Assembly (NCBI GenBank): GCA_013348725.1
Contig: CP054689.1
Span: forward strand, 1,104,501 to 1,168,500
Reading direction: 5' to 3'
Length of the DNA stretch: 64,000 nt
Origin: Ectothiorhodospiraceae bacterium 2226
GTDB taxonomy: Bacteria > Pseudomonadota > Gammaproteobacteria > GCA-013348725
Shown: piece by piece, positions 9,099-13,140 of the stretch
Numbering within the stretch: the stretch's first letter is position 1
Layout of the letters: every line of letters starts with the position of its first letter
Position numbers and translations under genes: made by a program
The notes under the pieces: model-generated
The model's database searches: none
What the model was told of the DNA's origin: nothing
The model's input: only the letters and a program-made list of their open reading frames with translations

Positions 9099-9770
9099 AT
9101 GATCCGGTTCACGCACGTCAGCAAGCGCTATCCCGAGGCCGGGGAGGCGCTCAGCGATCTCAGTTTCCACATCGATCCGGGCGAGATCGTGTTCCTCACC
9201 GGCCACTCGGGGGCGGGCAAGAGCACCCTGCTCAAGCTCGTCGCTCTGCTCGAGCGCAGCACGCGCGGCCAAGTGGTGGTGGCCGGCCAGAACCTGGCCA
9301 AGCTCTCGCGCCGGCGCATTCCCTATTTCCGACGCAATATCGGCATCATCTTTCAGAATCACCGCATGCTTCACGACCGCACGGTGTTCGACAACGTGGC
9401 GCTGCCCCTGGTGATCGCCGGGCACAGCCCGCAGGAGATCGGGCGCCGGGTGCGCGCGGCACTGGACAAGGTCGGCCTGCTCGGCAAGGAGCGCCAATAC
9501 CCCATCACCCTCTCGGGCGGCGAGCAGCAACGCGTGGGCATCGCGCGGGCGGTGGTCAACCGCCCCGCCGTGCTGTTGGCCGACGAACCGACCGGCAATC
9601 TGGACCCGGAGCTCTCACGCGAGATCATGGGCCTTTTCCAGCAGTTCAATCAGGTGGGCGTGACGGTACTGATCGCCACGCATGATCTGGCCCTCATCCA
9701 GGGGTTGCAACACCGGATTCTGACCCTGCGGCACGGACGGCTCGCGCACGACACCGGCCTTGCGGCATGA
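9099..9770 (+). CDS. ftsE: Cell division ATP-binding protein FtsE
   Basis: 223 residues, an ABC ATPase: Walker [10 protein letters not shown], signature [14 protein letters not shown], Walker [13 protein letters not shown] and the switch His (IATHD). With FtsX it forms the divisome complex that activates septal peptidoglycan hydrolases through periplasmic partners. The stop overlaps the ftsX start by four bases (ATGA), so the two products are made together. A GGGGGGG-rich stretch about 10 bases before the ATG may serve as ribosome site. Confidence 0.96.
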
Positions 9771-10711
9771 GGCGCGGGCGCACGACCCGTCTGCCGATCG
9801 CGGGCTGGGCCGCCCACCACGGCCGCGCCGCCGTCGGTACGCTCGGCCGGCTGGCGCGCGCGCCGCTCGCCTCGCTGCTGACGGCGGCGGTAGTGGCCAT
9901 CGCGCTCGCGCTGCCGGCGGGCCTCTACCTCGTCACTCAGAACGTGCAGCAGCTCAGCGGCAGTTGGGACAGCGGGGCCCAGATATCGCTGTTCCTGCGC
10001 GACGAGGTCGACGACGCCCAGGGCGCGCGCTTTGCCGAGGCGCTGCGTACCCGCGACGGTGTCGCCCGCGTCGAGTTCCTCTCCCGCAGCGGGGCCCTGG
10101 CGGAGTTCGAGCGCCTGTCCGGCTTCGCCGACGCCGTCGGCACACTGGACGCCAACCCGCTGCCCGCGCTGGTGGTGGTGCAGCCTGCGGACGCCCACGG
10201 CGCGCCGGAGCGCGCCTCCGCGCTGGCCGCCCAGCTCCAAACCTTACCCGAGGTCGACTCGGCACAACTGGACCTGGAGTGGGTGCAGCGCCTGCACCTG
10301 GTGATGGAGATCGCCCGACGCGCGGTGCTGGTGCTCGGCACGCTGCTCGGTCTTGCGGTCCTGCTGGTGGTGGGTAACACCATTCGCCTGGCGATCGAAA
10401 ACCGGCGCGAAGAGATCGAGATCACCAAGCTGATCGGCGGCACGGACGTCTTCATTCGGCGTCCTTTCCTGTACACGGGCCTGTGGTATGGTGCTGCTGG
10501 GGGTCTGCTGGCCTGGCTGGCTCTGGAACTTGCGCTCGCCGCGCTGCGCGGGCCGGTTGGACAACTGGCGGGCCTGTATCAAAGCGCCTTTACCCTCAGC
10601 GGCTTAGGTCTCACCCAGGGGCTTGGGTTGGCGGCGGTCGGCGCCGGACTCGGTCTGCTCGGTTCGTGGCTGGCCGTGGGGCGTCACTTGCGCGCGATCG
10701 AGCCCGACTAG
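9767..10711 (+). CDS. ftsX: Cell division protein FtsX
   Basis: 314 residues of the MacB/FtsX permease type. A first membrane helix (residues about 33-55) is followed by the periplasmic loop that touches hydrolase activators. Three further helices follow at about 185-205, 240-260 and 285-305. The conserved NRREEIEITKLIGGTD loop, a coupling contact with FtsE, is present near 210. Transcribed with ftsE by an ATGA overlap. A long imperfect hairpin follows in the 129-base gap before the next gene. Confidence 0.94.
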   Translation: MRRGRTTRLPIAGWAAHHGRAAVGTLGRLARAPLASLLTAAVVAIALALPAGLYLVTQNVQQLSGSWDSGAQISLFLRDEVDDAQGARFAEALRTRDGVARVEFLSRSGALAEFERLSGFADAVGTLDANPLPALVVVQPADAHGAPERASALAAQLQTLPEVDSAQLDLEWVQRLHLVMEIARRAVLVLGTLLGLAVLLVVGNTIRLAIENRREEIEITKLIGGTDVFIRRPFLYTGLWYGAAGGLLAWLALELALAALRGPVGQLAGLYQSAFTLSGLGLTQGLGLAAVGAGLGLLGSWLAVGRHLRAIEPD

Positions 10712-10730
10712 GCTCGGTCATCCCCGAGTT

Positions 10731-10773
10731 CTCAGACCGCGGCGACACATCCCTGTGCCGCGGGGGCTCTGAG
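10731..10773 (+). repeat. Long imperfect hairpin after ftsX
   Basis: The arms CTCAGA..CCGCGGC and GCCGCGG..TCTGAG pair around a 13-base loop with one 4-base bulge. No T-run follows, so it may slow or partly stop reading from ftsX, or protect the message end, rather than be a simple terminator. Confidence 0.45.
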
Positions 10774-10840
10774 CTGATCAGGGATTCTTCGGGAAGGCGG
10801 CGAATTGACGCCGTGACGGGCCGGGCGACAGGAGACGTGT

Positions 10841-12226
10841 ATGGATTCGCATCGCGTTGTGCCACCTCGCTCGCGCATCGTGCTGGTCGACGGCTCCTCG
10901 GCGTCGCGGCGGCTACTGATCGGCGTGCTCCGCGAACAACTGGAGGACGTCGAGGTGCTGGATTGCGGCACCGGCGCGGAGGCGCTCGCCGCGCTCGCCC
11001 AGGGCCATGTCGACCTGGTCAGCACCTCGCTCATGCTCCCCGATATGGACGGCCTGGACTTTGCGGCGCAAGTACGGCGCCTGCAGGGGCGCCGTTACAC
11101 GCCGCTGGTGCTCGTCTCCAGCCAGGACGATCCTGACCTGCTGCGCAAGGGACTCAAGGCCGGCGTCACCGACTATTTCGACAAGTCCCGCGGCTATAAG
11201 GCGTTCGGTGAATTCGTCCGGATTTTCATCCGCCGCCACGCACGCCTGGAAGGGCGACTGCTCTACGTCGAAGACAGCCGCACCACCGCCGCCGTCATCC
11301 GCCCGCTGCTCGAGCAGCAGGGACTGGAGGTGGAACACACCGCCAGCGGCGAGGAGGCGCTCGCGCGCCTCACGGAAACGGCCGGCAAGCTACACGAGGG
11401 ACCCGGGTTCGACCTGGTCGTGACCGACCTCACGCTCAAGGGCCGGCTCAGCGGCGAGGAACTATTGCACGCACTGCGCGCCCGCCACCACTACTCGCAG
11501 CAGGAATTGCCCGTGCTGGTGCTGACCGGTCACGAGGACCTGCGCAAGCAGGTCGAACTGTTTCATCTGGGCGCCAACGACTTCGTGAACAAACCCATCG
11601 TCGAGGCGATCCTGCTGGCGCGCGTGCGCTCGCTGCTGTTGGTCAAACACCAGTACGACATGCTCAAGCGCCAAGCCGAGGCGATGCACCTGCTGGCGAC
11701 CACCGACAGCCTGACGCGGACCTATAACAAGTGTTACCTGCTCGATCACGGCGAGGACTTCCTACGCGCCGCGCGGCCAGGGTCAGCCTGGGTGCTGCTG
11801 ATCGACATCGACCACTTCAAGCGCGTGAACGATGAGCATGGACACCTGGTCGGGGACCGGGTGCTGGCGGCGGTCGGCCAGACCCTGACGCACGCGCTGG
11901 CGCGCGGCCTTGTCGCGCGCTTCGGCGGGGAGGAGTTCTGCGCCTTGCTGCGCGACGCGGACCGGCATCAGGCGCTCGCCGCTGCCGAGGCCTTACGCTC
12001 GGCAGCACACGGTGTGTCGGTGGACGCGGTACGCATTACCGTCAGCGTGGGGCTGGCGGGGACGCTGGACCATCCTGACGGGAGTTTCGGCGAGCTCCTC
12101 GCGCTCGCCGATAAGGCCTTGTATCACGCCAAGGCGCAGGGGCGCGATCGGGTAAGCCTGTATGACGTCGACGGGCCACAGGGCACCGCCGCCGACGGCG
12201 GCGCCTCAGCTTCTAGCACTCCCTGA
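10841..12226 (+). CDS. REC-REC-GGDEF response regulator / diguanylate cyclase
   Basis: 461 residues, cytoplasmic. The first receiver (13-130) looks dead: the phosphoacceptor position has Ser63 and the N-terminal acidic pair is reduced to one Asp. The second receiver (138-265) has Asp196 and Lys251 and should be phosphorylated. The GGDEF domain (about 290-445) has an intact GGEEF at 362-366 and metal-site [11 protein letters not shown], so it should make cyclic di-GMP. No RxxD inhibitory site is seen before GGEEF. AGGAG lies 6 bases before the ATG. It sits between ftsX and rpoH, an unusual place, and its stop codon lies inside the CIRCE element for rpoH. No cognate kinase is nearby. Confidence 0.92.
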
Positions 12227-12239
12227 ACCAGAGTGCTAA
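12213..12239 (+). promoter_or_regulatory. CIRCE element (HrcA operator) upstream of rpoH
   Basis: CTAGCACTC, a nine-base spacer and GAGTGCTAA: this differs from the classic TTAGCACTC-N9-GAGTGCTAA only in the first base. CIRCE is the DNA site of the heat-shock repressor HrcA. It begins inside the cyclase gene (stop at 12224-12226 falls in the spacer) and ends 40 bases before the rpoH ATG. An extended -10-like TGC-TAAACT (12234-12242) overlaps the right arm, so bound HrcA could block it. No -35 of quality was found. hrcA is not in this window. Confidence 0.85.
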
Positions 12240-12279
12240 ACTGGGGTCTAAGTTGCTACTGCAACAGGAGATTCCCAGC

Positions 12280-13140
12280 ATGAGCACAGCCCTAGAACTG
12301 CGCACCAATCTACCGGTCGGGAGTCCGATCGGCAGCCTGGAGTCGTATGTCCAGGCGGTCAACCGGATCCCCATGCTCAGCGCCGACGAGGAGCGTGAAC
12401 TGGCCGAGCGCTGGCAGCGCGAGCGCGACATCCATGCCGCGCGTAAGCTGGTGTTGGCGCACCTGCGCTTCGTGGTACGGGTCGCGCGCGGTTACGCGGG
12501 CTACGGCCTGCCGCAGGCCGACCTCATCCAGGAGGGGAACATCGGCCTGATGAAGGCCGTGAAGCGGTTCGATCCCTCGCTCAACGTCCGGCTGGTATCT
12601 TTCGCGGTGCATTGGATACGCGCCGAGATTCACGAGTTTGTGATACGCAACTGGCGCATCGTGAAGGTTGCGACCACCAAGGCCCAGCGCAAGCTGTTCT
12701 TCAACCTGCGCTCGTCCAAGAAGCGCCTGGCGTGGTTCAATCGCGAGGAAGTCGAGTCGGTCGCGCGGGAGCTGGGCGTGGCGCCCGAGGCGGTGCTCGA
12801 GATGGAGCAGCGTCTGGCCGGGCAGGACCTGGCCTTCGATGCGCCCACGGAGGACGAGCACGACGCGCCCCCGGCGCCGGCGGCATATCTCGAGGATCGC
12901 CGCGCCGACCCGGCTCTGCAGCTCGAGGAGGCCGACTGGGAGGCCGACAGCCACGAGCGCCTCGCTGCGGCCTTGCAGCGGCTTGACGCGCGCAGCCGCG
13001 ACATCATGCGCCGCCGCTGGCTGAGTGACGGCAAGGCGACGCTGCAAGAACTGGCCGACACCTACGGTGTCTCGGCCGAACGCATCCGCCAGCTGGAGCA
13101 GAGCGCGCTCAAGCAACTCAAGGCCCACCTGGCCGCCTGA
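12280..13140 (+). CDS. rpoH: RNA polymerase heat-shock sigma factor (sigma-32)
   Basis: 286 residues, the family length. RpoH directs polymerase to heat-shock promoters. Seen: region 2 ([20 protein letters not shown], then [20 protein letters not shown] and [14 protein letters not shown]), the RpoH box QRKLFFNLR that marks this group and mediates chaperone-dependent control, and the region 4 helix-turn-helix ([20 protein letters not shown]). The ATG at 12280 follows AGGAG. A CIRCE element lies just upstream and a strong terminator just downstream, so this gene can be its own unit even though it follows ftsYEX. Confidence 0.96.

Follow-up and report, generated by a model that had tools for sequence, protein, structure and literature searches.

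A predicted HrcA operator with nested promoter elements before rpoH in Gammaproteobacteria

The rpoH locus and its CIRCE site

The window, by which we mean the whole 64-kb stretch of DNA that was analysed, carries on its forward strand an rpoH gene (12280 to 13140) encoding a sigma-32 of 286 residues. The protein matched TIGR02392 with 410.2 bits (cut-off 323.1), and a ribosome-binding site, AGGAG, can be read in the sequence at 12266 to 12270 of the same strand. The gene upstream, also on the forward strand (10841 to 12226), encodes a protein with two REC stretches and a GGDEF domain, and by these domain matches it is a probable diguanylate cyclase. It is PleD-like in its REC-REC-GGDEF domain order only, and its score with the PleD family NF007135 was 208 bits, below the cut-off of 474.

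A CIRCE-type palindrome, the predicted operator of HrcA, lies at 12213 to 12239 of the forward strand, with its left arm at 12213-12221, its spacer at 12222-12230 and its right arm at 12231-12239. Its letters are CTAGCACTC-CCTGAACCA-GAGTGCTAA. The initial annotation had described a 27-base match to the HrcA operator in which the first arm base alone deviates, and this is what we found, as the consensus TTAGCACTC-N9-GAGTGCTAA is matched at 17 of the 18 arm bases and the sole mismatch is the first. The CIRCE is real: it is the only match with up to three mismatches in the window, where such matches arose by chance at a mean of 0.01 per window in 100 dinucleotide shuffles. Its distance to the rpoH ATG, 40 bases, and its overlap with an extended -10, TG-C-TAAACT (12234 to 12242, forward strand), had also been annotated and can be read directly in the sequence. 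The stop codon of the cyclase gene, TGA at 12224-12226, falls within the CIRCE spacer.

The initial annotation tied the site to HrcA, and the genome (2.96 Mb, one contig) does encode this repressor: a single hrcA was found, above the cut-off of its family (TIGR00331, 330.2 bits against 197.2) and matched also by PF01628, and the open reading frame after it reads by eye as grpE. Genome-wide there are exactly three CIRCE sites with up to three mismatches, before groES, hrcA and rpoH, while a reversed control pattern had no match at this threshold in the whole 2.96 Mb. The groES gene was named by eye, and the same open reading frame used as a query finds groES-like frames in other genomes. On the far side of the CIRCE before hrcA (L003, 1501-1527) lies an NAD kinase gene in divergent orientation, which HrcA might therefore influence as well.

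CIRCE before rpoH across the class

Our class sample comprised 274 genomes, with rpoH detected in 247 (E ≤1e-70) and hrcA in 199, and the upstream DNA was analysed for the 150 most similar rpoH loci among those found (149 genomes). With up to three mismatches allowed, CIRCE preceded rpoH at 116 of the 123 loci from hrcA-positive genomes versus 9 of the 27 from genomes without detected hrcA (Fisher p 2e-11, uncorrected for kinship). Among 3000 shuffled upstream sequences there was one match at three mismatches, two at four and 38 at five, and none better. The site before rpoH is thus conserved in the class sample, as a genuine operator was expected to be in the initial annotation, although in the collection searched the window's genome is the sole member of its family and order and a lone branch of the class. 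That the predicted coupling of HrcA to sigma-32 is exceptional is not supported: among the examined genomes of the class that have hrcA it is usual (116 of 123 loci), and a 2004 study had already predicted it in Geobacter (PMC545781).

Five of the nine CIRCE-bearing loci without detected hrcA sit in genomes that are less than 90% complete, and hrcA may therefore be missing from their assemblies; in hrcA-lacking genomes of at least 90% completeness, CIRCE was present at 4 of 20 loci. Conversely, seven of the 123 listed loci from hrcA-positive genomes had no CIRCE with up to five mismatches. One belongs to a genome with a second rpoH copy; at another, L036, there seems to be a CIRCE whose spacer is 8 bases long, which is invisible to the scan. 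Seven loci (L029, L079, L093, L174, L192, L207 and L231) carry a variant palindrome with paired changes on both arms (mostly TTAGCAGTC-N9-GACTGCTAA, in one case with GATTGCTAA), which hints at a shifted HrcA specificity in some lineages, for example Stenotrophomonas and Pseudoxanthomonas. At L033 and L059 (genomes G074 and G202, of the same family) rpoH is preceded by a sigma-E-type box and by a palindrome of the form TGTGCACTC-N9-GAGTGTTAA, and no hrcA was detected in these nearly complete genomes. This palindrome may be a degraded site or one belonging to another regulator.

We also examined a set of named organisms, the best 80 of a larger number of named rpoH loci, which overlaps the class sample in part and is not an independent count; identical sites recur between the two (e.g., L162/L014 and L204/L060), and one of its loci, L219, has just 37 bases of upstream DNA. 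CIRCE was found at 27 of these best 80 loci, 22 of them also with the sigma-E-type box described below. The carriers include Dyella, Stenotrophomonas, Pseudoxanthomonas, Pseudoalteromonas and Thiohalobacter, and no CIRCE was found before rpoH at the loci of Pseudomonas, Halomonas, Marinobacter, Vibrio, Aeromonas and Haemophilus in this set. The extent of the putative regulon was surveyed in 15 hand-picked genomes, all with CIRCE at rpoH. With up to two mismatches, 13 of the 15 had exactly three sites, one had two and one had none, the rpoH site of the last having three mismatches. All 27 non-rpoH sites in these chosen genomes precede groES or hrcA.

An upstream gene could be identified at 91 of the 125 CIRCE-bearing rpoH loci (34 could not be assigned), with stop codons read in frame. 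It was ftsX at 59 loci and of the REC/GGDEF type, in some cases REC only, at 32, which indicates that cyclase or response-regulator neighbours of rpoH are not peculiar to this genome. Such a gene, REC-REC-GGDEF or a REC-only response regulator, stands directly before rpoH at 32 of the 125 loci and often occupies the place held elsewhere by ftsX. The initial annotation had called a stop codon inside the operator unusual, and rightly so: among the 91 listed loci only the window's upstream gene ends inside CIRCE, and the other identified genes stop 4 to 163 bases before it. A frame-blind reading of stop codons had suggested 45 upstream genes entering or crossing CIRCE, of which the frame-aware repeat left one. 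Lengthening of the cyclase frame by loss of a stop codon was rejected, as its 25-residue tail after the GRD motif resembles those of several relatives; this similarity fits a shrunken gap between gene and operator better than an extended frame.

Putative promoter elements nested in the operator

Alignment of the 125 listed rpoH sites showed that the arm letters are nearly fixed and that AAT is conserved directly 3′ of the right arm, giving the extended -10 TG-C-TAAAAT of a presumed sigma-70 promoter, which lies mostly within the right arm. Of the 125 sites, 116 have its final T, and the TAAACT form occurs in 18. At the other targets, counted with the window's genome included, the final T was found in one of 15 groES sites and five of 14 hrcA sites.

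A second element, which does not figure in the initial annotation, lies upstream. A GGAACTT-type box ending nine bases before CIRCE, matched in at least five of seven bases and within one base of this place, was present at 93 of the 125 loci, compared with 21 of 500 at control offsets, and at none of the 15 groES and one of the 14 hrcA sites (window's genome included). A sigma-E promoter has the form GGAACTT, 16 bases, TC..A. At the rpoH sites the corresponding -10 would combine the final two left-arm bases with the first three spacer bases, most often as TCTAA (33/125), TCTCA (21/125) or TCTTA (13/125). CIRCE position 12 is A in 86 of the 93 sites with the box versus 15 of the 32 without it (p 1.8e-7, uncorrected for kinship), and position 11 differs weakly between the two groups (p 0.01). 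A T at position 10, within the same proposed -10, is about as frequent with the box (65/93) as without it (20/32; p 0.51). Most of the relatives' rpoH genes are preceded by this putative sigma-E-type promoter, a GGAACTT-like -35 with a covarying -10, the covariation being seen at position 12 but not at position 10. The groES and hrcA sites of the same genomes consist of the same palindrome and presumably bind the same repressor, but at groES a TTGAC...TATTA-type promoter, as judged by eye, mostly lies just before CIRCE, and neither the AAT/-10 flank nor the sigma-E-type box is common at these two genes. The palindrome thus appears to supply promoter parts at rpoH, unlike at groES and hrcA, and we infer from the motifs which sigma factor would use which element.

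Scanning of 10650-12400 for sigma-70 promoters gave no consensus match, and the -35 candidate for the extended -10, TAGCAC at 17-base spacing, is poor by eye. Because a consensus promoter was not found, HrcA might bind mainly as a roadblock, with rpoH transcripts reading through from the ftsX/cyclase side and the elongating polymerase stopped at the cyclase 3′ end. The location of the genes on one strand, the cyclase stop codon inside the operator and the failure to find a terminator in 10650-12400 agree with such an action. However, a roadblock needs no extended -10, yet nearly all rpoH sites conserve one that is rare at groES and hrcA, and we consider this mode of action unlikely. Read-through could also make the palindrome act mainly in RNA, as a hairpin affecting stability, 3′ processing or rpoH translation. 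Indeed, 12200-12255 folds at -20.3 kcal/mol, which only three of 200 shuffles equalled (z -2.23). This is a highly improbable explanation nonetheless: the conservation of the arm letters goes beyond pairing alone and is as expected of a protein site, the site tracks the presence of hrcA, and the best-supported start, predicted near 12249, would exclude the hairpin from the rpoH transcript.

The window retains CIRCE and the TAAACT extended -10 without the sigma-E-type promoter. The place of the relatives' -35 (12197 to 12203, forward strand) reads GGCGGCG and that of the -10 (12220 to 12224, forward strand) reads TCCCT; within one base of the expected position the GGAACTT box is matched in two of seven bases at best. 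Cyclase coding sequence takes up the former place, there being no gap left between the gene and the operator. No substitute (-35 and TC..A separated by 15-17 bases) reached a score of 8 on the forward strand of 9701-12290. The genome encodes one rpoE, above its family cut-off, before which a sigma-E promoter of its own was matched only weakly (5/7), a score attained 31 times on the two strands of the window. The window is not alone in lacking the box, which is missing from 32 of the 125 listed sites. We infer that the sigma-E branch was lost in the lineage of the window rather than never present. A tree of 30 rpoH proteins was poorly resolved around the window's genome, and the CIRCE-only state required seven changes on it compared with a mean of 7.9 after shuffling (154 of 500 shuffles were as low), so that this state is not clearly clustered.

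The missing sigma-E-type part, together with the arm mismatch and the overlap with coding sequence, could mark a decayed CIRCE that is out of use. We give this hardly any credence, considering that hrcA is intact, that the extended -10 is retained, and that the genome's own CIRCE before hrcA equally has one mismatch, at an outermost arm base.

Proposed regulation, its evolution and known systems

It is very probable, judging from the sequence comparisons, that the palindrome is a working HrcA operator and that HrcA bound there represses rpoH by covering the extended -10 promoter. The co-occurrence of CIRCE with hrcA, the three-site regulon and the -10 overlap specific to rpoH all count for reading it as an operator of HrcA. 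At normal temperature HrcA on the palindrome would cover the presumed sigma-70 promoter, the -10 of which comes from the right arm, and RNA polymerase would be excluded from it. Heat occupies GroEL, and HrcA then loses its activity. Its inactivation would derepress groES, hrcA and rpoH together, and sigma-32 would in turn raise the heat-shock regulon at large. For most relatives, the operator would cover the sigma-E-type promoter as well, in which case HrcA would gate the envelope-stress input.

Clues to the history of this arrangement came from genomes without hrcA. Sigma-E-type matches with a score of at least 9 were found at 8 of 18 hrcA-negative loci lacking CIRCE versus 8 of 500 shuffles, and at two of these eight, L105 and L137, TTGGCACTC, a common form of the left arm, persists before the -10 although the right arm is disrupted or missing. 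These remnants, as well as the arrangement in E. coli K-12, would fit a history in which hrcA was lost first and the operator afterwards, while the sigma-E promoter stayed. We moderately favour a general scheme in which, in Gammaproteobacteria with HrcA, one 27-base palindrome would serve rpoH as HrcA operator, as sigma-E -10 (left arm and spacer) and as housekeeping extended -10 (right arm and AAT), bringing three stress regulators together within about 50 bases, with HrcA gating both promoters. The E. coli wiring, a sigma-E promoter and no HrcA, would then be a reduced descendant, and the lineage of the window would have lost its sigma-E input as the cyclase gene closed on the operator.

The teaching of the heat-shock response draws mostly on two models: in E. 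coli, sigma-32 acts in the absence of HrcA, and in Bacillus, HrcA acts in the absence of sigma-32. Should the scheme be true, the usual arrangement in the class would be hierarchical: HrcA would control the synthesis of sigma-32 at the DNA level, from a site inside the promoter that couples rpoH to envelope stress. It would also provide a testable account of the origin of the E. coli wiring, the window being a natural variant without the sigma-E branch.

A search of the open-access literature, outside which most subscription journals lie, found no paper on an element shared by sigma-E and HrcA; this is not proof of absence, and the nested promoter-operator architecture at rpoH seems to be new. 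The operator as such is not: in 2004 a CIRCE was predicted upstream of the Geobacter sulfurreducens rpoH, with exact arms, 51 bases before rpoH by the authors' count, and in the presence of hrcA (PMC545781). The three targets are the same, groESL, hrcA-grpE-dnaK-dnaJ and rpoH, but this organism is a delta-proteobacterium, and the passages of that paper dealing with the site mention neither a sigma-E element nor an overlap with coding sequence (PMC545781). A 2003 comparative study of beta, gamma and epsilon regulons, cited in that paper, may already list such sites.

E. coli K-12 carries TGAACTT-N16-TCTGA before rpoH, with the same sigma-E-type spacing as in the CIRCE-bearing relatives. This is its sigma-E promoter, P3. 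The rpoH upstream region of K-12 has no CIRCE (best match, eight mismatches), and E. coli is not among the seven control genomes with an hrcA match. The window, in contrast, has CIRCE and lacks the sigma-E-type element.
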